Shown in pieces: positions 3,713 to 52,560 of a stretch of DNA of 52,565 nucleotides (position 1 is its first letter; each line of letters starts with the position of its first letter). The translations under genes and the position numbers were made by a program. The stretch is from Phycisphaeraceae bacterium (lineage in GTDB: Bacteria; Planctomycetota; Phycisphaerae; Phycisphaerales; UBA1924): the NCBI GenBank assembly GCA_021297895.1, contig JAJTHN010000034.1, forward strand, positions 1 through 52,565, written 5' to 3'. The notes beneath the pieces are model-generated. The model searched no databases. It saw only the letters and a list, made by a program, of their open reading frames with translations, and had not been told where the DNA came from.

Positions 3713-5573
3713 TGCTCTGAATCCGCGACGCTATCTCATCCCGTTTCGTTCGCTGCTTCTGCCGCAGATTTTCTGCGATACGCTGATCATTGGCGGCGGC
3801 GTGGCGGGGCTTCGTGCGGCGATTTCCGCGGCCGAGGATGGCCAGCGGCTCGGCGGCGCGAACTTCGGCGGCGTCATCGTGCTGGCCAAGGATGAACCCT
3901 CGCAAAGCAACACCGCGTGGGCACAGGGCGGCATCGCCGCGGTGACCGGGGCGGACGACACGATCGACGGGCACGTCGAGGACACGCTGGTCGCGGGAGC
4001 GGGGCTGTGCGATGAGCCGGTGGTGCGGCTGGTCTCATCGCGCTCGGGCGCGGCGATCGAGGAACTCGTGTCGTGGGGAATGCGGTTCGATGTCGGGCCC
4101 GATGGCAAGCCCAGCCGCGGACGCGAAGGCGGGCATGCGCTGGCACGAATCCTGCACAGCGACGGTGACGCGACGGGGCGGGAACTCATGCGCGTGCTGT
4201 GGGCACGCGCCAAAGCCACCGCCGGTGTCCGCGTCTTTACGGGGTGCTTCGCTCTGGATCTGATCACGCCGCCGGGAGCGAACGGCGGCCAGGCGGGTGC
4301 CGCTGGGGACGGGCGGCCCGTGCTCGGGGCGATCACGCATCACCCGCGCTACGGCCTGCAGATGATCTGGGCGCGGACGACCATCCTCGCCGCTGGCGGC
4401 GCGGGAATGCTCTATCGCGAAACGACCAATCCCCGTTCGGCGACGGCCGATGCGGTGGCAATGGCCTATCGCGCAGGCGCGGACGTCGCGGACATGAGTT
4501 TCGTTCAGTTCCACCCGACGGCGTTGTACCTGGCCGGTGCGGGGCGGTTCCTGATCTCCGAAGCCGTGCGAGGGGCGGGAGCGCACCTGGTGGATCAGGA
4601 CGGCGTGCGGTTCATGATCGGCGAGCACGAACTTGCGGAACTGGCGCCGCGCGACATCGTGTCGCGGGCGATCGTCCGGCGGATCGCCAGCGCGCCGGGC
4701 GGGGCTGGCCCGACGACGGGGGACAACGGCGGCATCTCGATGCACGGCGGAGCGCACGCGGGCGGGAGGGTGTTCCTTGATTGCCGGCACCTCCGCTCGT
4801 TCGCATCGGCGTTCCCGGGCATCACGGCGGTCCTTGGCAGGTTTGATATCAACCCCGCGCGCGACCTGATCCCGATCCATCCCGCCGCACACTACATGAT
4901 CGGCGGCGTGTTCACCGATGCACTGGGTCGGACGAATCTGCCGGGGCTGCTGGCGGCAGGAGAGGCCGCGTGCTCGGGGCTTCATGGAGCCAATCGTCTG
5001 GCGAGCAACTCGCTGCTGGAGGGCCTGATCTTCGGCGACCTCGCGGGGCGCGTCGCGGCGCGACGGGCGTCGGGCGGCGATTCCGATGATCTCGCGGCGG
5101 AGGTCGCCGGTGTGTCCGGACTGCGACTGGGCACTCCCGCGGGATGGCGAGCCCCCTCCAGCGCAGCGCCGATGGCGATCGTCAGCGACATCCGTCCGAG
5201 CGACTCGGCGGAACTGGATCTGTCGGACGTTGAGAGTTCCTTGCGCTCGGCGATGTGGCGCAACGCGGGGATCGAGCGCTCCGGAACGCGGCTGAACGAC
5301 TGCCGCGACATGATCGAGTTCTGGGCGCGGTACACGCTGGACAAGATCTTCGATGATCCGCGCGGCTGGCAGGTTCAGAACATGCTCCTGGCCTCGTGGC
5401 TTGTGGTTCGGTCCGCGGCGTGGCGGACAGAGAGCCGCGGCTGCCATTGGCGGGCGGACCACCCAACGCAGCGGCCGGAACTGGCCGTTCATGATGTCTG
5501 GCGCCTTGGCGCCGGCGAGCCGGCGAAGGTTCCGGTGGTGTCACCGTTGGTGAGCGGGCGGGCGGCGGAGTAA
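3705..5573 (+). CDS. nadB: L-aspartate oxidase NadB
   Basis: A 622-residue flavoprotein that oxidises L-aspartate to iminoaspartate, the first step of the aspartate route to NAD. The FAD-binding GGGVAG is at residues 30-35. Family blocks follow in order: AWAQGGIAAV, EGGHALARILHSDGDATGRE, FVQFHPTALY, SEAVRGAGAHL, and near the end of the flavin domain HGANRLASNSLLEGL. A helical C-terminal domain completes the protein, and length is normal for NadB rather than for succinate dehydrogenase flavoprotein. The ATG at 3705 sits inside the last codons of the mannosidase gene. An upstream in-frame start at 3657 is rejected because it would add sequence foreign to the family. No nadA or nadC lies in the window. 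Confidence 0.95.
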   Translation: MLDALNPRRYLIPFRSLLLPQIFCDTLIIGGGVAGLRAAISAAEDGQRLGGANFGGVIVLAKDEPSQSNTAWAQGGIAAVTGADDTIDGHVEDTLVAGAGLCDEPVVRLVSSRSGAAIEELVSWGMRFDVGPDGKPSRGREGGHALARILHSDGDATGRELMRVLWARAKATAGVRVFTGCFALDLITPPGANGGQAGAAGDGRPVLGAITHHPRYGLQMIWARTTILAAGGAGMLYRETTNPRSATADAVAMAYRAGADVADMSFVQFHPTALYLAGAGRFLISEAVRGAGAHLVDQDGVRFMIGEHELAELAPRDIVSRAIVRRIASAPGGAGPTTGDNGGISMHGGAHAGGRVFLDCRHLRSFASAFPGITAVLGRFDINPARDLIPIHPAAHYMIGGVFTDALGRTNLPGLLAAGEAACSGLHGANRLASNSLLEGLIFGDLAGRVAARRASGGDSDDLAAEVAGVSGLRLGTPAGWRAPSSAAPMAIVSDIRPSDSAELDLSDVESSLRSAMWRNAGIERSGTRLNDCRDMIEFWARYTLDKIFDDPRGWQVQNMLLASWLVVRSAAWRTESRGCHWRADHPTQRPELAVHDVWRLGAGEPAKVPVVSPLVSGRAAE

Positions 5574-38123: not shown

Positions 38124-40004
38124 TCAGGGCAGCGGGCAGCCCACGAAGAAGTAGTTAAAAAACGCCGTGAAGTCGCCGTTGTCGATCGTCCCGTCAGGAC
38201 CGGCACCCTCGCGCACAGTCTCGCCATCGGTGTTGGCGATATCAGCCTGAACACGGATCGGGTCCGCGGCGTCGGCAAAGAACCCGGCAAAGAACGCCGT
38301 GAAGTCGCCATTGTCGATCGTGCCGTCCGGCCCACCGCCGACCAGCGTCGTCTCCCCATCGGTGTTGGCGATGTCCGCCGGCGAGCATTGAACAACCACG
38401 GGCGGGGAGATCGTGACGTTGAGCGTGAGCGTGAGGCTCGGCAGCGAACCGCCGCCGAGAGTGCCCGCCGCGTCCGCGCACAGAATCGTGTACGTCGCGC
38501 TGTACGTGCCCGGCGCGACGCTCGTGTTGACCGTCGCATCGAACGCGCGGCTCGTACCCGCGACGATCACGCTCTGCGGCGAGAACCCCGTCGAGAACGC
38601 GGACGTCGCACCGGTCGCGGTGATACCCGTCGCGTCCATCGAAGCGGTCGTCGTCGGCGTTGTCGAACGGTTCCAGACGCGCCATGTCGTCACCGGCGAC
38701 GCCGCGTTCTGGGCGATGGTGCCGAAGTTGATCGTCTGCGTTCGGAACGTCAGCGAGTTCGAGAGCGAAGAGTTCGCCCGCGTCACCGCCCGCCCCGTAA
38801 TGCTGATCACGTCGTTGCCATCGGCGTTGCCGGTCCCCGTCGTGGCGGTCGGCGTGGTGTAGGGCGGCTCGGTCACATCTGTATTGTCGATCGTCACCGT
38901 CGAGGTGAAGTTGCCGACGCTGACCGGCGTCTGGACACCAACAAGCAACTGCCGCGTCTGGCTCCCGCCGGTAAACGCGTTGAACGGTCCGATCACGCTG
39001 GCCGCTGGCGATCCGGCGGACACCGTCACGCCGGAGCTGCCGGTGACATTGAACGTCGTCGGGTTGCTCCCGCTCTTGCGGAGCGTGACCACCTGCGTGG
39101 GGATCGTCGTGCTCGTGACGACATCACCCAGCGCAATGGTCTGCGTGCTGGCGCCATCCGTCGGCTCCGGCGTCGCGGGGCCGACCCAGATTCTCGAGTT
39201 GTTGGTGATTCGTGGCGTCGGGTTCGCGGGCGGCCCCGGCGTCGCCGTGCCATAGATCGCCCACACCCACTCCGGCCGATCGATGAACGGGTTGCGATTG
39301 AACTGATAGCTCGTGTAAATCGTGTGGTTCTTCTTCCGCTCCCAAAGGTCCGGCGGCTCTTGGAAGTGCCAGTCGATCAGCGTCGCGCGATCGCCGAGGG
39401 TGTTCGATGTTCCGGGATTGCCGTTGACAAGCGTCAGGCCGGTGTATCGCGTCTCGACGTAGAAAGCCGCGCGGGCGATGCGACCGCGATCGCGACCGCC
39501 CAGCGAGTTCGGATCCCAGAACGAGCCGCCGATGCCAAAGTTGCTGTTGCCACGCGACGAGTTGGCACTCGGCGTCGCAGCACGAAGGTGGTGCAAATCC
39601 GACCGCGCCGGCTCGCTCGACGTCCCGCGCGACTGCGGCCAGCCATGCTCACGATTCCACGTCACGCCCGAGTCCCACGTGCCCGAGACCGTCGTCCCCG
39701 TGTACGCCAGCAGAATCAGCGATGAATTGGATTCCGTCGCCTCGGTCACACCCATATCAAAACGCACCGCGTCGTACCCGCGCTGCGTATAGGGCGAGCT
39801 GACCCGCGTCCGCAGCGCGCTCTGCAGCGACGAGCCCGTGCCCGTGATCCCTTGGTAGTACGTCGCCGGCGGATCGAACTGTGCCGCGGCGGTCCCGGCG
39901 AACGCCGCCAGCCCGATCGCGCACACCATCAACACTCGGCCCGCTCGGTGCGCTCGCCAAGAAGATACAGATACCGGCATCGACAAATCGGTCGGCTCGA
40001 TCAC
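38124..40004 (-). CDS. Secreted endonuclease I-family protein with GC-type dockerin-like tail
   Basis: 626 residues. A signal peptide (AGRVLMVCAIGLAAFAGTAAAQ) precedes an endonuclease I domain at about 45-265 with the active-site block WNREHGWPQS and DLHHLRAATPSANSSRGN. A Thr/Ser-rich middle of about 270 residues resembles choice-of-anchor beta-domains. The C-terminus has two repeats, each containing ADIANTDGE and GPDGTIDNGDFTAFF, bounded by single cysteines (VQCSP and VGCPLP), matching the GC-type dockerin-like anchor of Phycisphaerae. The protein is therefore probably secreted, degrades extracellular nucleic acid, and is retained through its tail. The GTG at 40004 is favoured by GGAG seven bases upstream; an ATG at 39980 lacks one. 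Confidence 0.9.
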   Translation of the reverse strand: MIEPTDLSMPVSVSSWRAHRAGRVLMVCAIGLAAFAGTAAAQFDPPATYYQGITGTGSSLQSALRTRVSSPYTQRGYDAVRFDMGVTEATESNSSLILLAYTGTTVSGTWDSGVTWNREHGWPQSRGTSSEPARSDLHHLRAATPSANSSRGNSNFGIGGSFWDPNSLGGRDRGRIARAAFYVETRYTGLTLVNGNPGTSNTLGDRATLIDWHFQEPPDLWERKKNHTIYTSYQFNRNPFIDRPEWVWAIYGTATPGPPANPTPRITNNSRIWVGPATPEPTDGASTQTIALGDVVTSTTIPTQVVTLRKSGSNPTTFNVTGSSGVTVSAGSPAASVIGPFNAFTGGSQTRQLLVGVQTPVSVGNFTSTVTIDNTDVTEPPYTTPTATTGTGNADGNDVISITGRAVTRANSSLSNSLTFRTQTINFGTIAQNAASPVTTWRVWNRSTTPTTTASMDATGITATGATSAFSTGFSPQSVIVAGTSRAFDATVNTSVAPGTYSATYTILCADAAGTLGGGSLPSLTLTLNVTISPPVVVQCSPADIANTDGETTLVGGGPDGTIDNGDFTAFFAGFFADAADPIRVQADIANTDGETVREGAGPDGTIDNGDFTAFFNYFFVGCPLP

Positions 40005-40631: not shown

Positions 40632-41642
40632 TCATCGTGTGCCGCGCGGCTCGGCGTCATGGGCGTGCTCATCTACCTCGGGCGTGCGCGTCGCACCAAG
40701 ATCAAGTTCCGAAGACGACAACTCAGCGCGGGCCTCGCGAGCGTCCGGGTCGTCATGGCGACGCCCCTGCCGCACGTCGGCATCGGCCCCGCTCTGGCCC
40801 CCGCCCGCGTCATCCACCGGCGCGTTGGTCAGCGCCGTCACCAGACCCCGATTGAGCTTCAGCAGCAGCAACCCCCGCAACTCATCGGCGTTCAGCGACC
40901 TAGTCAGTTCGCCCCGCTCCGCGAGCGAGATGATCCCCGTCTCCTCGCTGACGATCACGACCAGCGCATCGGTCTCCTGCGTCACACCCACACCGGCGCG
41001 GTGGCGGGAACCGAGCTGACCATCGCTCATTTCACTCGGCTCGGCCAGCGGCAACTGGACCCCCGCCGCGAGAATCCGCTCCCCGCGGATGACCACTGCA
41101 AGATCATGCAGCGCCGTCCCCGGGAAGAAAAGCGTCTGCAGCAGCCTGCTGGACATATCCGCGTTCAGCACCGTCCCGCCCTCGAGCAGGTTCTTCAGCG
41201 GCGTCGACCGTTCAATCACCATCAACGCGCCGAACTTCGCCCGGCTCAGGTACACCGCTGCCTCCACCACCGCATCAACGGTGATCGTCACCGGCTGAGG
41301 CTTGCGTCGGAACAGCGGCGTATCACCGATGCGGCTGATCGCCCGCCGGATCTCCGGCTGGAACACCACCACCAGCCCGATCGCCACCAGCGGCAGCATC
41401 GCGTCGTACAGGAAGGCCAGCCGCGTGAAGGACTCTCCATGCCCCAGCACGCGCACAAGCATCGACGCGACAACGAGCAGGAAGAACATGACCTTGACAG
41501 GTCGCGCCACCCTCGCCGAAATCACGAACCGAACTACGATGAACACGACCACCCAGATCACCGCGAACTCGATCGCCACCTGCCACCATGGATAGGTGGT
41601 CAGCCGCTGCGCGAGTTGGTCCAGTCGATCAAGAGGGTTCAC
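40632..41642 (-). CDS. cdaA: CdaA-type diadenylate cyclase with altered DGA motif
   Basis: 336 residues from a GTG. Three N-terminal membrane helices (about 20-100) end in the family block VVFQPEIRRAISRIG. The DAC domain (about 120-275) makes cyclic di-AMP from two ATP. RHR is present at 213-215 (LGSRHRAGVGV) and VIVSEETGIISLA follows. The DGA motif, however, reads D180-L181-A182 in TALHDLAVVIRGERI, with leucine replacing the conserved glycine. The C-terminal about 60 residues are acidic and disordered. It pairs with the downstream YbbR-like gene. Either the enzyme tolerates the change or it has lost or altered activity. Confidence 0.9.
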   Translation of the reverse strand: MNPLDRLDQLAQRLTTYPWWQVAIEFAVIWVVVFIVVRFVISARVARPVKVMFFLLVVASMLVRVLGHGESFTRLAFLYDAMLPLVAIGLVVVFQPEIRRAISRIGDTPLFRRKPQPVTITVDAVVEAAVYLSRAKFGALMVIERSTPLKNLLEGGTVLNADMSSRLLQTLFFPGTALHDLAVVIRGERILAAGVQLPLAEPSEMSDGQLGSRHRAGVGVTQETDALVVIVSEETGIISLAERGELTRSLNADELRGLLLLKLNRGLVTALTNAPVDDAGGGQSGADADVRQGRRHDDPDAREARAELSSSELDLGATRTPEVDEHAHDAEPRGTR

Positions 41643-44098: not shown

Positions 44099-44488
44099 TC
44101 AGCCGATGCGCAGCAAAGGAGCGTTCGCCGGGACATCCTGACCCTGGCGGACCATGATCTCCTGCACGGTTCCGCCGATCGGCGAGTGGACCGAGCCCGC
44201 CAGCGTGCAGCCCGCCGGGTTGATGTGCCCGGATGCCTGAAAGTCCAGCACCGTTTCGCCCGCTCGCACGCGATCACCCGGTTTGACGTGCAAGGCCAGA
44301 ACCTTCCCGGCGATGTGCAGCGTCACCGTCTCCGGCGTCACCTTCCCGGCAAGCGCCGTCGGCGTCGCGGGCGTACTCGGCAGCACGGGCGCGGCCGATG
44401 CGACCGCCGGCTCGGCCACCGGCTCACCACCGATCACATCTACCTCAACGTCATACGTTGCATTCTCGACCTTGATCCGCAGTTTCAT
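44099..44488 (-). CDS. Biotin-carrier-like protein lacking the biotinyl lysine
   Basis: 129 residues. The N-terminal VENATYDVEVDVIGGEPV and Ala/Pro linker, then LHVKPGDRVRAGETVLDF and SVHSPIGGTVQEIMVRQGQDVPANAPLLRI, are those of a biotin/lipoyl carrier of acyl-CoA carboxylases. The loop that should read EAMKM is instead QASGHINPAGCTLAG, longer and with no lysine. No alternative frame restores the motif. It overlaps the 89-residue gene by 4 bases and has AGGAG upstream, so the gene looks intact and expressed. It may be a structural subunit, while a biotinylated carrier is encoded elsewhere. Confidence 0.8.
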   Translation of the reverse strand: MKLRIKVENATYDVEVDVIGGEPVAEPAVASAAPVLPSTPATPTALAGKVTPETVTLHIAGKVLALHVKPGDRVRAGETVLDFQASGHINPAGCTLAGSVHSPIGGTVQEIMVRQGQDVPANAPLLRIG

Positions 44489-44754
44489 CGCTCGCTCCTG
44501 ATCGTGCCCGGTGTCGGCTCCCCCGGTTGCTTCTCCGCCTGCCACGCGTTCCACGGACCGCTCCGCCCCGCACGCGCATGCCGCCAGCCGGCACGGGCCC
44601 AAGATCGGTGCGGCGGCAGAATCGGCCTGACCGTCGCCCCCGCGGCGTCGGAACTCGCCAGCGAAACACGCCGAACGCGCGCCCGCTCGCCGAGAATCGC
44701 CGCGACCGCCGCCGCGATTACCACCAGATGCTGTCTCGGAACTCTCGCCGACAT
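44485..44754 (-). CDS. Small acyl-CoA carboxylase accessory subunit, OadG-like
   Basis: 89 residues. HLVVIAAAVAAILGERARVRRVSLA matches the N-terminus of small proteins encoded between carboxylase beta and biotin-carrier genes in several phyla, and SWARAGWRHARAG resembles their terminal WxxAGR region. The function in these operons is unclear; related OadG/MmdD subunits stabilise decarboxylase complexes. GGAGG is 4 bases before the ATG at 44754 and the stop overlaps the carrier gene (ATGA). The helix is only moderately hydrophobic, so membrane insertion is not certain. Confidence 0.68.
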   Translation of the reverse strand: MSARVPRQHLVVIAAAVAAILGERARVRRVSLASSDAAGATVRPILPPHRSWARAGWRHARAGRSGPWNAWQAEKQPGEPTPGTIRSER

Positions 44755-44823
44755 CGCGCCTCCGTGCCGCCCAATCACCCCAACCGCACACTTCCACGCC
44801 CGTCCGCACTCCACCTTGCGTCA

Positions 44824-46488
44824 TTACAGCGGCATCGTTCCGTGCTTCTTGACCGGCCGCAGGTCGCGCTTGGTCCGCAGCGCTTCAAGCGCCCGCGCGA
44901 TGTAGATCCGCGTGTCCGCCGGCTCAATGATGTCATCGACCATCCGGCGCCCGGCCGCCACGTACGGATTGCTGAACAGCGAGCGGTACAACTCGATCAT
45001 CTCCGCCCGCTTGGCCGCGGGGTCCGCCGCCTCAAGGATCTCCTTGCGGAAGATCACCTCGACCGCACCCTCAGCGCCCATCACCGCGATCTCCGCGCTG
45101 GGCCACGCCGCCACCGCATCGGCCCCGAGATCCTTCGAGCTCATCGCCACATACGCGCCGCCGTACGCCTTGCGCACAACCACGCAGATCTTCGGCACCG
45201 TCGCCGCGGAGTACGCAAAGAGCAGCTTCGCGCCGTGCCGGATGATTCCGCCGTACTCCTGCTTGACGCCGGGGAAGAACCCCGGCACATCCACCAGCGT
45301 GACGATCGGCACATTGAACGCGTTGCAGAACCGCACGAACCGTGCCGCCTTGTCCGATGAGTCGATATCCAGCGCGCCGGCTTTGACCGCCGGGTTGTTC
45401 CCCACGATGCCGACGCTCAGACCGTTGATCCGCCCGAACCCGACGATGATGTTCGCCGCGAACCCGCTCTGAACCTCTAGGAAGTCACCGCCGTCGACGA
45501 CCTTCTCGATGATCCGGCGCATGTCGTACGCGATCCGCGCATCCGGCGGCAGCAGCGTGTTGAGTTCCTCAACCCGCTCCACACCGCCCGCCCACTCGGC
45601 CCGCGGCGGGTCTTCCGTGTTGTTCGCCGGCAGAAAACTCAGCAACTTCCGGCAGATCGCGAGCGCATGCCGATCCGTGTCCGCGATGAAGTGCACATCG
45701 CCCGAGTAGTGCATGTGCGCCTCGGGGCCGCCCAACTCCTCCGCCGTCACCACCTCGCCCGTGACCTTCTTGATCACCTGCGGGCCGGTGATGAACATCT
45801 GCGCCTGACGCGTCTGAATGATGAAGTCCGTGATCGCCGGGCTGTACGCCGCGCCGCCCGCGCACGGCCCGCAGATCAGCGAAATCTGCGGCACGACACC
45901 GCTCAGCAGCGTGTTGCAGAAGAAGATCCGCCCGTACGCCCCCAGCGAGTCAATCCCCTCCTGAATCCGCGCGCCGCCCGAGTCGTTGATGAACACAAAC
46001 GGCGAGCCCGTCTTGAGGCTCACCTTCATCATCTCCACGATCTTGTCCGCGTGAACCTCGCCCACCGCACCGCCGCCGGAGGTGAAGTCCTGACTGGCCA
46101 CGTGCACCAGCCGACCGTCAACGGCCCCGAAACCCGTGATCACCCCGTCGGCCGCGAGTTCCTTCTTCTCCATCCCGAGGTACGTGCAGCGATGCCTCGC
46201 AAAGCCGTTCCGCTCGGTGAACGACCCCGGGTCCATCAGCGTGTCGATCCGCTCCCGCGCCGTCAGGTTTCCCGCCGCCTTGACCTTGGCGATGCGTTCC
46301 GCACCGCCCATGAGCATCAGCGTCTCGCGCTTGCGCTTGAGTTCCGCCAGTTTCTCCGCCATCGTCACGGGCGAACGCGCCACCGCCTTCTCGGGCGACT
46401 TCTCGCCCTGCTTGCCCGCGACGCCCGCCGCCGCACCGGCGGCCACTTCCACCTTCGCCGTTACATTGTTATTCATTGCGTTCGACAT
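44824..46488 (-). CDS. Acyl-CoA carboxylase beta (carboxyltransferase) subunit
   Basis: 554 residues. A biotin-dependent carboxyltransferase of the propionyl-CoA carboxylase beta/methylmalonyl-CoA decarboxylase alpha family. Blocks: LTARERIDTLMDPGSF, SQDFTSGGGAVGEVHADKI, FINDSGGARIQEGIDSL, CGPCAGGAAYSPAITDFI, GGPEAHMHYSGDVHF, VDVPGFFPGVKQEYGGIIRHGAKLL and YGGAYVAMSSKDLGADAV. The N-terminal about 40 residues are Ala/Lys-rich. It should produce (S)-methylmalonyl-CoA from propionyl-CoA, or the reverse, upstream of the epimerase and mutase. The biotin carboxylase alpha subunit is not in the window. It is followed by the small accessory and carrier genes. Confidence 0.93.
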   Translation of the reverse strand: MSNAMNNNVTAKVEVAAGAAAGVAGKQGEKSPEKAVARSPVTMAEKLAELKRKRETLMLMGGAERIAKVKAAGNLTARERIDTLMDPGSFTERNGFARHRCTYLGMEKKELAADGVITGFGAVDGRLVHVASQDFTSGGGAVGEVHADKIVEMMKVSLKTGSPFVFINDSGGARIQEGIDSLGAYGRIFFCNTLLSGVVPQISLICGPCAGGAAYSPAITDFIIQTRQAQMFITGPQVIKKVTGEVVTAEELGGPEAHMHYSGDVHFIADTDRHALAICRKLLSFLPANNTEDPPRAEWAGGVERVEELNTLLPPDARIAYDMRRIIEKVVDGGDFLEVQSGFAANIIVGFGRINGLSVGIVGNNPAVKAGALDIDSSDKAARFVRFCNAFNVPIVTLVDVPGFFPGVKQEYGGIIRHGAKLLFAYSAATVPKICVVVRKAYGGAYVAMSSKDLGADAVAAWPSAEIAVMGAEGAVEVIFRKEILEAADPAAKRAEMIELYRSLFSNPYVAAGRRMVDDIIEPADTRIYIARALEALRTKRDLRPVKKHGTMPL

Positions 46489-46531: not shown

Positions 46532-46969
46532 CTACTTCCCCGCGTGGGCCGCCGCCGGCTCGCACAGTTCCGTCAACACACCGTTGGACGCCTTGGGATG
46601 CACAAACGCGATCTTCGCGCCGTGCGCCCCGCCCCGCGGCGTCGCATCGATCATCCTCACCCCGCCCTGCGCCAGCGCCGCAAGCCGGTCCTCGATCTTC
46701 TCGACCGTGTACGCCAGATGGTGCAGCCCCTCGCCGCGCTTCTCGATGAACTGGGCGATCGGTGAATCGGCGCTGGTCGGCTCGAGCAGTTCCAGCCGAA
46801 CCTCCGCCCCCGTGGGCCCGATGACATAGAACGCCACCCGCACCTTCTGGTCGGCCACATCCTGCACACCCTCGAGCCGCGCGCCGAGCACCCCCTCATA
46901 AAACGCCCGCTGCGCCTCAAGGCTCCGCACCGCGATCCCGACGTGATTGAGGGCCTTGGCTTGGATCAT
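46532..46969 (-). CDS. mce: Methylmalonyl-CoA epimerase
   Basis: 145 residues of the vicinal-oxygen-chelate fold. Interconverts (S)- and (R)-methylmalonyl-CoA. Metal ligands are in LNHVGIAVRSLEAQRAFYEG (His), GEGLHHLAYTVE (His) and the C-terminal LTELCEP (Glu). VRLELLEPTSADSPIAQFIEKRG is typical. The ATG at 46969 has AGGAG upstream and gives the family length; an open frame to 47032 is rejected. It lies between meaB and the carboxylase beta gene on the same strand. Confidence 0.95.
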   Translation of the reverse strand: MIQAKALNHVGIAVRSLEAQRAFYEGVLGARLEGVQDVADQKVRVAFYVIGPTGAEVRLELLEPTSADSPIAQFIEKRGEGLHHLAYTVEKIEDRLAALAQGGVRMIDATPRGGAHGAKIAFVHPKASNGVLTELCEPAAAHAGK

Positions 46970-47114
46970 CTCAGCGCTCCTGCGATTGGGGGTTCGCCGA
47001 TCATCGCCGCCCGCTCCCCACCGATGCCGCAACTGCGTCCCAATCGCTCACAGTTGCCGTCGTACAGCACACTCTACTGCCAAAGCGCAAGCCGCGTCCA
47101 ACCCAACGGACTTC

Positions 47115-48185
47115 TCAGCCTCCCAAATGGCCCAAACCGGCGGTACGAACTTCGCGCAGCCATGCCGAAACCACCATCTCCGAGGCCGCACTCGGGGGGG
47201 TCTGTCCATCAAGCACCGCACGCTTGGCGGCCTCCATCGCATCGCGGGCCGCGGGCGACTGCTCGATCATCGCCTCAAGCCGATCGTGCACCAGCGTCGA
47301 GAGCCACCGGAGGTTCTGCTCGCGTCGACGCCGGTCCAGCCGCCCGCTGCTTCGCCGCTGCTCCACGCGCTCCGCCACGATCTGCCACACCCGCTCGATC
47401 CCCTCGCCGGTCAGGGCGCTGCACGTGACCACCGCCGCGGGGCCCTCGCCGTCATCGCGTCCGGCCATATGCATCGCCGCGGCCAACTGCCTCGCCGCCG
47501 CTTCCGCCCTCACCTTGTTCTCGCCGTCGGCCTTGTTGATCGCCACCGCATCCACCAACTCTAGCACCCCGCGCTTGATCCCCTGCAACTCATCGCCCGC
47601 ACCGGCGATGAACAGCCCCAGGAAAAAGTCCGTCATCTCCGACACGCTCGTCTCGCTCTGGCCCACCCCCACCGTCTCGACAAGCACCACCCCATACCCC
47701 GCGGCCTCGAGCACGATCATCGCCTCGCGCGTCCGCCGCGCAACGCCGCCGAGCGTCGTTCGCGCCGGCGACGGTCGGATGAACGCCCCCTCCGCCGCGG
47801 CCAACTTCGGCATCCGCGTCTTGTCGCCCAAAATCGACCCGCCCGTCACGCCCGATGACGGATCCACCGCCAGCACCGCCACCCGCTGCCCCCGACCGAT
47901 CAGGTGCATGCCCAGCCGCTCGATAAACGTGCTCTTGCCCGCCCCCGGAACACCCGTGATCCCCACCCGAATCGCCGCCCCGCTCCGCGGCAGCAGCAAC
48001 TCCAGCAGCTTCCGCCCCGCGATCTCATCCTCCGGCCGCACCGATTCAACGAGCGATATCGCCCGCCCGATCGCCGCACGCTCCCCGCGCACCACCGCCT
48101 CCGCGAGCGCCTCGGGAGTCGCAGACTTGCTCGGCGTCAGCGCGGGCCGCCTCGGCTGGCCCGACTTGCCCACACCTTCACTCAT
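47115..48185 (-). CDS. meaB: Methylmalonyl-CoA mutase-associated GTPase MeaB
   Basis: 356 residues. A G3E-family P-loop GTPase that loads and protects the adenosylcobalamin of methylmalonyl-CoA mutase. The P-loop is [50 protein letters not shown] and INKADGENK supply the remaining G motifs. A C-terminal helical dimerisation region is present ([18 protein letters not shown]). Its ATG overlaps the mutase large-subunit stop by 4 bases, so it is coupled to its client. Confidence 0.95.
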
Positions 48186-50392
48186 GCGCCCGCCCCGCCT
48201 GCCTGCTCGTCGAGCAGATCCAACAGTTTCCCCGCCGCGTCGCTGATCACCGTACCCGGCCCGAAGATCGCCGACGCACCGGCATCGAACAGCGCCTGGT
48301 AATCCTGAGGCGGAATCACACCGCCGACCACCACCAGCACATCCTCGCGGCCAAGGTCCTTCAGCGCCTTAACCAGCGCCGGCACCAGCGACAAGTGCCC
48401 CGCCGCCAGCGACGACACGCCGACAACATGCACATCGTTCTCCACCGCCTGCCGCGCGCTCTCCTGCGGTGTCTGGAACAACGCGCCGATATCCACATCA
48501 AACCCCATGTCCGCGTACGCGCTGGCCACGACCTTCTGACCGCGATCGTGACCGTCCTGCCCCATCTTCGCGATCAGGATCCGCGGCCTGCGCCCCGTGC
48601 GCTTCTCGAAGGCCTCGACACGCTTGCGAACAGCCTCAACGGCGTTATTGCCCATGGCCTCGCGAGCATACACGCCGCGGATCGACCTGACCTCCGCCTC
48701 GTGCCGTCCGTAGACCTTCTCCAGCGCCATGCTGATCTCGCCGACCGTCGCCATCGCCCCCGCCGCCACGATCGCCAGTTCCAGCAGGTTGCCCGTGCCG
48801 TCCTTGGCGGCCTGAGTCAGCGCGGCGAGCGCACGCTCCACCGCCGCCGAATCCCGCGACGCGCGCAGCTTTGCCAACTGGGCCACCTGCGCCTCGCGCA
48901 CGGCGGGGTTGTCGATCTTCAGCACGTCCGGAGTCTGATCATGCTCCGGGCGGTACTTGTTCACGCCGACGACCGTCTGCAGGCCCGAGTCGATCCGCGC
49001 CTGCGTCCTGGCCGCGGCCTCTTCGATCCGCAACTTCGGAATCCCCGCCTCGATCGCGCGCGCCATCCCGCCGAGTTCCTCGACCTCCACCATGTGCGCC
49101 CACGCCCTTGTCGCCAGTTCGTGCGTCAACCGCTCGATGAAGTACGACCCGCCCCAAGGATCGATCACGCGGCACGTATCGGTCTCCTGCTGCAGAAACA
49201 ACTGCGTGTTCCGCGCGATCCGCGCCGAGAAGTCCGTCGGCAACGCCAGCGCCTCATCCAGCGCGTTGGTGTGCAGGCTCTGCGTGTGCCCCTGCGTCGC
49301 CGCCATCGCCTCCATCGCCGTTCGAATCACGTTGTTGTACACATCCTGCGCCGTCAGGCTCCAGCCGCTGGTCTGGCAGTGCGTCCGCAGGCACTCGCTC
49401 TTGGGGTTCTTCGGGTTCAGCGTCCGCACCAGCCGCGCCCACAGCAGCCGCGCCGCCCGCAACTTTGCAACCTCCATGTGGAAGTTCATCCCGACCGCGA
49501 AGAAGAAGCTCAGCCGCGGCGCAAAGTCATCCACGCTCAGCCCGCTCTTCATCCCCGTCCGCAAGTACTCAAGCCCGTCCGCCAGTGTGTACGCCAGTTC
49601 CAGATCCGCCGTCGCCCCGGCCTCCTGCATGTGATACCCGCTGATCGAGATGCTGTTGAACTTCGGCATCTTCTGCGACGTGAACCGGAAAATGTCCGCG
49701 ATGATCCGCATGCTCGGCCCCGGCGGATAGATGTACGTGTTCCGGACCATGAACTCCTTGAGGATGTCGTTCTGGATCGTCCCCGAGAGCTTCCCCACCG
49801 CCACTCCCTGCTGCTCCGCCGCCGCGATGTACATCGCCAGCACCGGAATCACCGCACCATTCATCGTCATCGACACGCTGATCTGGTCCAGCGGAATCCC
49901 GTCGAACAGCGCCCGCATATCCAGAACGCTGTCCACCGCCACACCCGCCATGCCCACATCACCCGTCACCCGAGGGTGGTCGCTGTCGTACCCGCGGTGC
50001 GTCGCAAGGTCGAACGCCACCGACAATCCCTTCTGCCCCGCCGCGAGATTCCGCCGATAGAACGCGTTGCTCGCCGCCGCCGTGCTGAAGCCCGCATACT
50101 GCCGCACCGTCCACGGCTTGAGCGTGTACATCGTCGCATACGGCCCGCGAACAAACGGCGCGATCCCCGGCAACGAGCCCATGTGCCCCACGCCCTCAAG
50201 ATCCGCCGGCCCGTACTCGGCCCGCAGCCTGATCTGCTCGGCCGTCATGGTCGACAACCCCTCGCCACCGCCCGCGCCCGCCTTCATCGCCGCGCCACCG
50301 CCGGCACCCTCAAGCGGCACCCCCACCAGGCTCGGGATCTCCGCGACCGCAGGAACGCTCACGCTCGCCATCCGTTCACGCGTCGTGCTCAC
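48182..50392 (-). CDS. mutB: Methylmalonyl-CoA mutase, large (catalytic) subunit
   Basis: 736 residues. Adenosylcobalamin-dependent isomerisation of (R)-methylmalonyl-CoA to succinyl-CoA. The TIM-barrel substrate domain begins at [25 protein letters not shown], and [16 protein letters not shown] and [19 protein letters not shown] are canonical. The C-terminal B12 domain carries the cobalt-ligating block [18 protein letters not shown], later [13 protein letters not shown] and VVVGGVIP. The GTG at 50392 overlaps the small-subunit stop (GTGA); an ATG 21 bases further in is an alternative. The first about 60 residues are Gly/Ala-rich. Confidence 0.96.
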
Positions 50393-52560
50393 AGCACCGC
50401 TCCTTCCTGCGCCAGCAGTTCGCTCAGAACCTTGACAACATCGCACCGCACAAAGATGAAGCGGTCCACACCGCTCGCGGCGTACTCCGCCTGCTTCTCA
50501 CCCGGATGCCCCGCCAGCACCACCGTCCGCGCCCCAGCGCGATGCAGCGCCGGCGCGAGCACCCCGACAACATCCGCGTACTGCGCATCGCCGCCGCAGA
50601 TCACCGCGATCGATGCGCCGCTGCCCTTGAACGCCTCGGCCAGTCCGTCCACATCCCCCTCCGCACCCACCGTGGCGAACCCGCCGGCCTCAAAGAACCC
50701 CTTGCTGTACGTCGTCCGCGCCAAGTGCTGCGCCGGCGTGCCAACGCTCGCCAGAAACACCCGCGGCCGCTGGCCGCACTGCTCCGCCAGCCGATCCGCC
50801 GCATCGCGCAGGTGCTCGAACGCCTCGCCATAAGGATGCGCCGTCAGCGCCTCGCCCAGCGTCGCGCCGACGCCGTGCGCACCGCCGATCCCGACATCCG
50901 CGATACCCGCAACCTGCCCGATGCTCGCCCCCGCCGCCGCGGCACGCCACGCCCTGGCTACCGCCGTCGTCGCGCCCGCAACATCGAGCGTCGCCCCCCA
51001 CGCGGGCCTGGCCGCCTGCACGCGCGCTGCGCACCGCACACGCAACGTCGCAAGGTCCACCGGCGCGGGCATCGGCGGCTGCTCGCCAAGGTTCGCAAAC
51101 TCGCTCACGCCGATGATCGCATCACGCCGGCTGGCGACGTTCGCCTCCCGCGGCGTGCGCGCCCGGCGCACCTGCTCGCTGATCCACCCCGACGCCAGCG
51201 CCGACATCATCCCGCCGCGAGACTCGATCTGCTGGAGAATCTCCCACGCCCCGCGAGCCAGCTCCTCGGTCAGCGTCTCAACGTAGTACGACCCGCCCGC
51301 CGCATCATTGACGCGGTGCAGGTGGCACTCTTCCTGCAGGATCACCTGCGTGTTCCGCGCGATCCGCCGCCCGAGCGGCGACGGCGATGCCCCCGGCCCG
51401 CACAGCGGCGCATCGAACGCCGTCGCCGTGATGCTGTCCGCCCCCGCGCTGGCCGCCGCGAACACGCACGAGGTCACCCGCAGGATGTTCACCCACGGAT
51501 CACGCGTCGTCAGCACACGCTTGCTCGGCCGCACGTTCATCACCATCCGCTGCGCCGCCGCATCACTCCTGCCCGCCCCCGCCACCTCGACCACGCGGCT
51601 CCACAGCCGCCGGGCCGCGCGCAGCTTCGCCATCGCCATGAACATCCCCGTCCCGATCGCGTAACTGAACAGCATCTGCCCGCACGCGCGATCGACACTC
51701 ATCCCCGCCCGCACCATCGCCCGCAGATACTCCAGCCCCGTCGCCATCGAGAACGCAAGATCCTGCGTCGCCGTCGCGCCAGCGTGGTGATACGGCGCGG
51801 TCCCCACCCGGATCGACCGCACATGCGGATACCGCTCGCCCGCCCACGCCGCCAGTTCCGCCGCAACTCGCACCGACTCCTCCAGCCCCATCGTCAGGTG
51901 CCCCTCGCGCGCCAGCACCGCCAGCGGATCGGCATTGAAGCACCCGCGGCACTGCCCCGGCGACAAACCCTGCCGCTCCCACAACGCCGCCAGCATCGCC
52001 GCACCCGGCACAAACGCCGAGCCCGCCTCCAGCCCCACCGTGATCATCCCAAGATGCACGCCGCGAAACGCACGGTCCCAGTCCGCCGCCGTCGCCAGCG
52101 ATGCGCCATCGACACCGACCAATCCATCCGCGCCGTTGCCATCGGGATCGAGCCCGCGCCGCGACGCCGCATCCAGCCGCAACTGAACGCTCGTCACGCC
52201 GTTCTCAAGATCATCGAGGATCGCCGCGTTGAGCACCTCCGGCTCCGCCTCCGCGTGCTCCTGGCGAATGTCCCACCCCGCCAGCACCGCGGCCAAAGAC
52301 CGCGCCCCACGCGTGTAAGGCGGCACCCCGCTCGCCGCTCCTTGAGCCACCGCACCCGCACCAGCCACCGCACCCGCCGCCACCGAGCGCGCCAAGTCCT
52401 CCGCCGTGTACAACGGCTTGATCGTCAGCCCCTCATACGTTCGCGTGAGCAACTTCTTCTCAAACGCGGCACCGTGAAGGTCATCCTCCACCAGCGCTCG
52501 CCACTGCTCATACGCCGGGGTCGGGAACTCACCGGCGATATCCAGCACCTTGGGCAGCAT
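50389..52560 (-). CDS. mutA: Methylmalonyl-CoA mutase, small subunit
   Basis: 723 residues. The non-catalytic partner of the heterodimeric mutase. It retains the barrel blocks [52 protein letters not shown] and [24 protein letters not shown]. In its B12-like domain the DxHxxG motif is absent ([28 protein letters not shown]), as expected for the small subunit. The N-terminus [25 protein letters not shown] is typical, so the gene is probably complete, with its ATG five bases inside the window edge. It heads the mutA-mutB-meaB unit; its promoter lies outside. Confidence 0.95.

Follow-up and report, generated by a model that had tools for sequence, protein, structure and literature searches.

The closest described counterparts of the protein studied here are MmdC of Pyrococcus horikoshii and the 1.3S subunit of transcarboxylase, which it resembles in sequence, in fold and in its position beside an MmdA/12S-type subunit, but from which it differs in lacking the biotinyl lysine, in carrying a hairpin eight residues longer, and in that neither MmdB nor a 5S partner was found in the biotin-less genomes searched. 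In transcarboxylase, the N-terminal segment of 1.3S contacts the 12S carboxyltransferase, and in malonate decarboxylase the carboxyltransferase-like subunits MdcD and MdcE decarboxylate biotin-free. The sodium-pumping methylmalonyl-CoA decarboxylase is comparable in gene order, as seen in relatives with an AMKM carrier (G021, G175, G174 and G001), whereas the operon described below lacks MmdB and a biotin site, and its delta has no hydrophobic helix. Two further systems can be likened to the protein by description. According to the available part of the source, BADC proteins of plants are BCCP-like, lack the AMKL motif and act as ‘glue’ for acetyl-CoA carboxylase, an older model being one of inhibition (PMC11926652). 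The shared trait is a BCCP-like domain without a biotinylation motif, which in BADC works for a biotin-dependent carboxylase although it bears no biotin itself (PMC11926652, same part); BADC acts on plastid acetyl-CoA carboxylase, whereas our protein is encoded in a methylmalonyl-CoA operon, has a putative role, and has MmdC and 1.3S as its nearest solved sequences. TfAcCCE, of the epsilon type found in actinobacterial acyl-CoA carboxylases, is presented in the accessible text as a small non-catalytic subunit for holoenzyme assembly, which attaches to the carboxyltransferase and increases Vmax/Km roughly 20-fold; at 8.7 kDa it is not described there as having a carrier fold, and the likeness is one of description alone (PMC7835884). 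Among titles and the beginnings of abstracts, with subscription journals mostly uncovered, we found no description of a biotin-less MmdC variant.

The window, meaning the whole stretch of 52,565 nt that was analysed, is one entire contig of a draft genome (3.48 Mb, 84 contigs) from the uncultured planctomycete bacteria. The carrier-like gene lies on the minus strand, a detail absent from the earlier note, and is the final gene of an operon with the order mutA-mutB-meaB-epimerase-mmdA-delta-carrier, whose features are as follows.

44099–44488, minus strand: biotin-less MmdC/1.3S-type carrier-fold subunit, 129 aa (translation, Pfam, structure model, alignment)
44198–44239, minus strand: 14-residue hairpin QASGHINPAGCTLA (residues 84–97), replacing the 6-residue EAMKME turn (alignment with 16 biotin-less and five AMKM proteins)
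44485–44754, minus strand: small OadG/delta-like subunit, hydrophobic helix absent (hydropathy; start inferred, GTG at 44814 possible)
44824–46488, minus strand: MmdA/PccB/12S-type carboxyltransferase, 554 aa (Carboxyl_trans, E 3.1e-188)
46532–47032, minus strand: methylmalonyl-CoA epimerase (TIGR03081, above cut-off)
47115–48185, minus strand: MeaB GTPase (NF006958, above cut-off)
48182–50446, minus strand: methylmalonyl-CoA mutase, large subunit (NF006944, above cut-off)
50389–52560, minus strand: methylmalonyl-CoA mutase, small subunit (TIGR00642 the best match, below its cut-off; start near the contig end)

The earlier note had described an intact frame with an AGGAG and an overlap with the upstream gene, set within a methylmalonyl-CoA operon, and both points held. 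The translation runs through 129 residues with no internal stop, AGGAG (CTCCT on the plus strand, 44495–44499) lies 6 nt 5′ of the carrier ATG, and this ATG shares the sequence ATGA with the TGA of the gene before it; the epimerase, MeaB and the large mutase subunit score above their family cut-offs and the small mutase subunit below. Elsewhere in the window, a minus-strand frame at 38124–40004 encodes a 626-aa protein that is endonuclease I-like by eye and ends in two similar ADIANTDGET...GPDGTIDNGDFTAFF repeats resembling a dockerin-like C-terminal motif, and a second minus-strand frame at 40632–41642 has, again by eye, the appearance of a CdaA-type diadenylate cyclase.

Judged from its sequence and predicted fold, the window protein is a biotin carrier of the methylmalonyl-CoA decarboxylase gamma type (MmdC/1.3S) without the biotin site. 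Its N-terminus, MKLRIKVENATYDVEVDV, has the same opening as the AMKM relatives, and the conserved N-terminal segment of MmdC/1.3S is present in the sequence. Biotin_lipoyl_2 and Biotin_lipoyl (Pfam) are both matched above their cut-offs, in two stretches per family, and the turn reads VLDF-QASGHINPAGCTLA-GSVHSPIGGTV. The (E/D)AMKM turn has lost its biotinyl lysine: as first noticed from the sequence, the EAMKM hairpin is exchanged for a longer loop, here eight residues longer and with no lysine at any position. Of the 17 biotin-less proteins, 14 have a hairpin of 14 residues, one has 15 and two have 17; all five aligned AMKM relatives have 6. A glycine follows the hairpin directly in 17/17, and three positions on there is an arginine in 14 and a histidine in three. 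Two members of genus g73 (L079 and L082) have the sequence EVSKL, in which a lysine occupies the biotinyl-lysine column, flanked by S and L and not by M; because it sits in the aligned column, biotin on these two carriers stays conceivable, and the lysine may be a leftover of the old site or offer a test case for the ligase. The nearest solved sequences are the MmdC-type BCCP of P. horikoshii (2d5d/2evb/2ejf, E 1.3e-5) and transcarboxylase 1.3S (1dcz/1dd2, E 4.4e-4). An AlphaFold model computed with eight sequences in the input is confident over the domain at residues 51–129 (block means 76–90), is of low confidence for the linker and the residues before it (block means 38–44), and places the hairpin loop at residues 86–95. 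Its best structural match is the gamma chain of P. horikoshii methylmalonyl-CoA decarboxylase (Foldseek E 5.3e-6, 2evb), and superposition gives Z 14.0 and rmsd 1.1 over 70 aligned residues for 2d5d, and Z 12.6 and rmsd 1.6 over 71 residues for 1dd2.

We found the biotin-less form in 17 genomes including that of the window, 15 in one family and two in another family of the class. An MmdA search of 163 genomes of the first family gave 18 at 66% identity or more, the window genome among them: G021, G175, G174 and G001 have an EAMKM carrier followed by MmdB, and the other 14 have a biotin-less carrier with MmdB absent, the copy in G018 being divided between the ends of two contigs. Searching with a profile built on biotin-less carriers added one genome of the family, G087, whose biotin-less copy stands at a contig end with MmdA not seen. 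At order level this profile matched 37 of 400 genomes (15 biotin-less, 21 with a lysine motif, G218 left out), at class level 38 of 397 (the window genome, biotin-less G490 and G661 of the other family, and 17 with a lysine motif, a count that leaves out 18 weak matches without loci), and at phylum level 32 of 392 (the window genome and 20 with a lysine motif, 11 weak ones left out); the three draws of genomes overlap one another. Scanning a collection of named genomes for MmdA returned 90 relatives, of which the best 80 comprise 64 loci with a lysine motif, seven biotin-less and nine with the carrier unseen or cut off. The seven are recorded as Phycisphaerales, Phycisphaerae or Planctomycetota and were all already among the G-numbered genomes. 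Within the same best 80 of 90, MmdB was matched at 46 and a PycB/5S-like protein at 14 of the 64 lysine-motif loci, and neither was matched within the seven biotin-less loci. Wherever the contig permits, the biotin-less carrier lies beside MmdA, and the reading frames are open in the copies read, that of G018 being interrupted by the contig ends. Most of these genomes are drafts, so absences weigh less than presences, for which agreement over 14–17 assemblies compensates in part. Orthologues with a normal AMKM turn, which the earlier note had paired with sequencing error or recent decay as a ground for doubt, do exist (4 of the 18 family genomes with MmdA), but nothing points to an error or to decay in recent times; the biotin-less form itself is shared by 17 genomes. 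In L192, a member of the Krumholzibacteriota, we saw by eye an MmdA with no adjacent carrier, upstream of 2-oxoacid:ferredoxin oxidoreductase-like frames.

The loss of the biotin site goes together with the absence of the membrane pump, a point missing from the earlier note. MmdB (OAD_beta, PF03977) was found in none of the 17 biotin-less genomes, which are the 15 of the family, with the window genome and G087, and G490 and G661 of the other family. It was found in 5 of 163 family genomes (G021, G175, G174, G001 and G140), in 5/5 with an adjacent EAMKM carrier. The membrane anchor follows the same division. In AMKM operons the N-terminal helix of delta is strongly hydrophobic (highest mean hydropathy 2.58–3.17 in the five read), and one such delta, that of L085, is matched by OAD_gamma of Pfam (E 2.3e-13). 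The delta-like subunit of the window reaches a maximum 19-residue hydropathy of 1.48 and has no Pfam match, OAD_gamma included; across the nine biotin-less operons read, the maximum is 1.25–1.96 and the hydrophobic helix is absent in 9/9, and the C-terminal segment (in the window, VPRQHLVVIAAAVAAILG) is recognisable in most of the nine. This set leaves out the biotin-less loci L075, L076, L077, L080, L081 and L084 and the AMKM loci L164 and L171, in which the gene was not identified, together with G087 and G661.

Five pairs from three genera gave a dN/dS of 0.08–0.17 for the whole biotin-less carrier gene, and the four pairs computable for the domain gave 0.06–0.12; no sequence was close enough to pair with the window copy, so these are values of its relatives. 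For L072/L073 saturation of synonymous sites leaves the domain value without meaning, and the whole-gene value is close to that limit. The corresponding MmdA pairs gave 0.02–0.08. The single AMKM pair gave higher values than the biotin-less carriers (0.28 for the gene, 0.17 for the domain), and the constraint on the latter is therefore no proof of any particular role. In a quick tree search with SH-aLRT support only, the 15 MmdA sequences from biotin-less operons group, with SH-aLRT 100, in a single clade nested inside other MmdA; the 72 rows labelled AMKM include some with the carrier cut off or unseen, and the tree omits nine duplicate rows, rows of fewer than 400 residues and the partial MmdA of G661. 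Because hairpin length is kept, dN/dS is low and the 15 MmdA fall in one clade, loss of the biotin site looks like a single, old event. As far as sequence can speak to it, retention of the biotin-less carrier under selection is supported, and the same can be said of the suggestion that it is a functional, structural or regulatory subunit, in view of its presence in 17 genomes, its hairpin length, its low dN/dS and its place beside MmdA.

We next considered where MmdA could obtain biotin. In all 14 biotin-less genomes surveyed there is exactly one biotin carboxylase; AccB (EAMKV) was found in 13 of the 14, and not in G084. The two genes are adjacent by coordinates in 12/14, and in the window genome AccC and AccB stand on separate contigs. 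The remaining PF00364 matches read in these genomes are lipoyl, HlyD-like or partial, a reading that leaves out six matches below the cut-off. A further BCCP, for which the earlier note had proposed a search, is present in the window genome in the form of AccB, the sole PF00364 match with a biotin motif; the others are three lipoyl domains and weak or partial matches, and a replacement carrier was rejected. A transcarboxylase partner was rejected as well, the PYC_OADA/5S-type domain (PF02436) being found in 0/21 genomes, that of the window included. A PccA (biotin carboxylase plus carrier) dedicated to propionyl-CoA carboxylase was not found in the 14 genomes, where the biotin carboxylase is single. 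The idea that MmdA replaces an acetyl-CoA carboxylase that has lost its own subunits was discarded, with AccA present in 18/18. A further carboxyltransferase frame of 512–674 aa accompanies the one biotin carboxylase in 11 of the 14 biotin-less genomes, and the three listed are 34–36% identical to MmdA; the window genome, in which none was found, is an exception to this pattern. As several carboxyltransferases with one biotin system are common, sharing of AccB-AccC is favoured. By eye, the second carboxyltransferase lies near enoyl-CoA hydratase and acyl-CoA dehydrogenase-like frames in L310 (G105:C5) and beside a biotin-ligase-like frame in L311 (G068:C98). For these two neighbourhoods plus-strand frames of at least 200 aa were listed and small genes judged from the genome-wide PF00364 search, in which no biotin-type carrier appeared beside either gene.

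Our preferred reading, which we hold to be about evenly balanced between right and wrong, is that the operon encodes a soluble carboxyltransferase that borrows the biotin of AccB-AccC and retains the emptied carrier for assembly, without a part in catalysis. The ancestor of the operon would have been a sodium-pumping methylmalonyl-CoA decarboxylase composed of the MmdA carboxyltransferase, the delta anchor, the MmdC carrier and the MmdB pump. Going by the pattern of gene content, and leaving the order of events aside, one lineage of Phycisphaerae would have arrived at a soluble complex by losing MmdB, the part of delta that anchors it in the membrane, and the biotinylation site of MmdC. MmdA, whose active-site motifs are retained, is probably the carboxyltransferase of a propionyl-CoA carboxylase that feeds the epimerase and mutase, a direction we infer because no pump remains to exploit decarboxylation. 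Carboxybiotin for MmdA may be supplied by AccC and AccB, the sole biotin carboxylase and carrier found; use of AccB is reached by exclusion, as no other biotin carrier was found in these draft genomes, and G084 is without AccB. By extension from transcarboxylase 1.3S, the conserved N-terminal segment of the biotin-less MmdC would grip MmdA, and the carrier-fold domain with its remodelled hairpin may, in a BADC-like manner, dock AccB/AccC or stabilise the assembly. In function BADC is the closest precedent for such a role, and TfAcCCE is another.

Less likely is a regulatory decoy: lacking biotin, the carrier would vie with AccB for binding to MmdA or AccC and so hold the enzyme back. Its anatomy is like that of BADC, for which the accessible part of the source reports an inhibition model (PMC11926652), and the carrier fold is predicted to be intact without the cofactor site. 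However, the protein is encoded one-to-one with MmdA and is the only carrier-like gene of the operon, so a stoichiometric subunit suits better; a hairpin of fixed length points to some specific contact, which would fit either reading.

It is improbable, in our estimate, that the enzyme is biotin-independent, with MmdA decarboxylating methylmalonyl-CoA directly, as MdcD/MdcE do with their substrate in malonate decarboxylase, and delta and the dead carrier serving as a scaffold. In the genomes searched a cognate biotin carrier, a pump and a 5S partner were all not found, and the same fold serves the biotin-free malonate decarboxylase, of which kind there are weak family matches here. MmdA itself bears on this point from both sides. 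The nearest solved sequence to the window MmdA is transcarboxylase 12S (1on3, E 5.9e-205), and MmdA of the biotin-less clade retain 143 of 152 near-invariant columns, with nine changed (L089 and L234 excluded from the count). Gly244 in window numbering, present in 70/70 comparison rows, has been replaced by Arg or His in 12/15 biotin-less MmdA (VTGE to VTRE or VTHE), and F404 is changed to Y in 12/15 and N346 to S in 11/15, which speaks for this reading. Against this, the glycine-rich motifs GPCAGGA and [KR]A[YF]GGAY are each kept in 15/15, and the window, L072 and L073 have the ancestral residue at all three positions, so these changes are no mark of the whole biotin-less clade. Similarly improbable is a variant in which MmdA of this clade acts on methylmalonyl-CoA as a decarboxylase or carboxyltransferase with no biotin carrier at all, the old carrier having turned, via its larger hairpin, into a new active-site or docking element.

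That the hairpin carries another group on another residue is, we think, very unlikely. The fold is that of a swinging-arm carrier, and a serine at the third hairpin position, the commonest modifiable residue, is present in 13/17, but no such residue is invariant: lysine occurs in 8/17, spread over four alignment columns, and cysteine in 1/17. The single cysteine is that of the window copy, and the proposal in the earlier note that something is attached to it does not hold up.

We give still less credence to slow decay, in which a functionless gene is being lost. At L173 (Phycisphaerales RS_11_12, 4827–5159 and around) MmdA is followed by a delta-like protein and next by a frame that by eye resembles uvrC, and a carrier gene looked for beside the first two was not found. 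The subunit is thus dispensable in this relative, where it may have been lost in a separate, additional event. Ahead of the domain, 11/17 biotin-less and 0/5 AMKM proteins have a tryptophan-histidine motif, which the window copy lacks, as do the two relatives closest to it. The dN/dS of 0.06–0.17 in relatives, the kept hairpin length, the open frames in the copies read, and the presence of the tryptophan-histidine motif in biotin-less proteins but in none of the AMKM proteins argue against decay. A sequencing or assembly error is ruled out: the same form stands in the same place in 16 other genomes, from several different assemblies, so it is due neither to chance nor to assembly, no AMKM lies in another frame, and a simple frameshift is excluded because, by eye, ATG-AAR-ATG is absent from the other frames of the stretch.

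For annotation, family names alone could suggest that the protein is a biotin carrier and that the operon encodes either a sodium pump or a propionyl-CoA carboxylase with all its parts, and both are probably wrong. The operon offers a natural experiment in which a membrane ion-pumping enzyme appears to have become soluble, with pump, anchor and cofactor site gone and the carboxyltransferase and an emptied carrier kept. If the preferred assembly role is true, the window protein would do in bacteria what BADC does in plants, having been derived from a different carrier family, and it would suggest that in these planctomycetes one AccB-AccC pair serves several carboxyltransferases.
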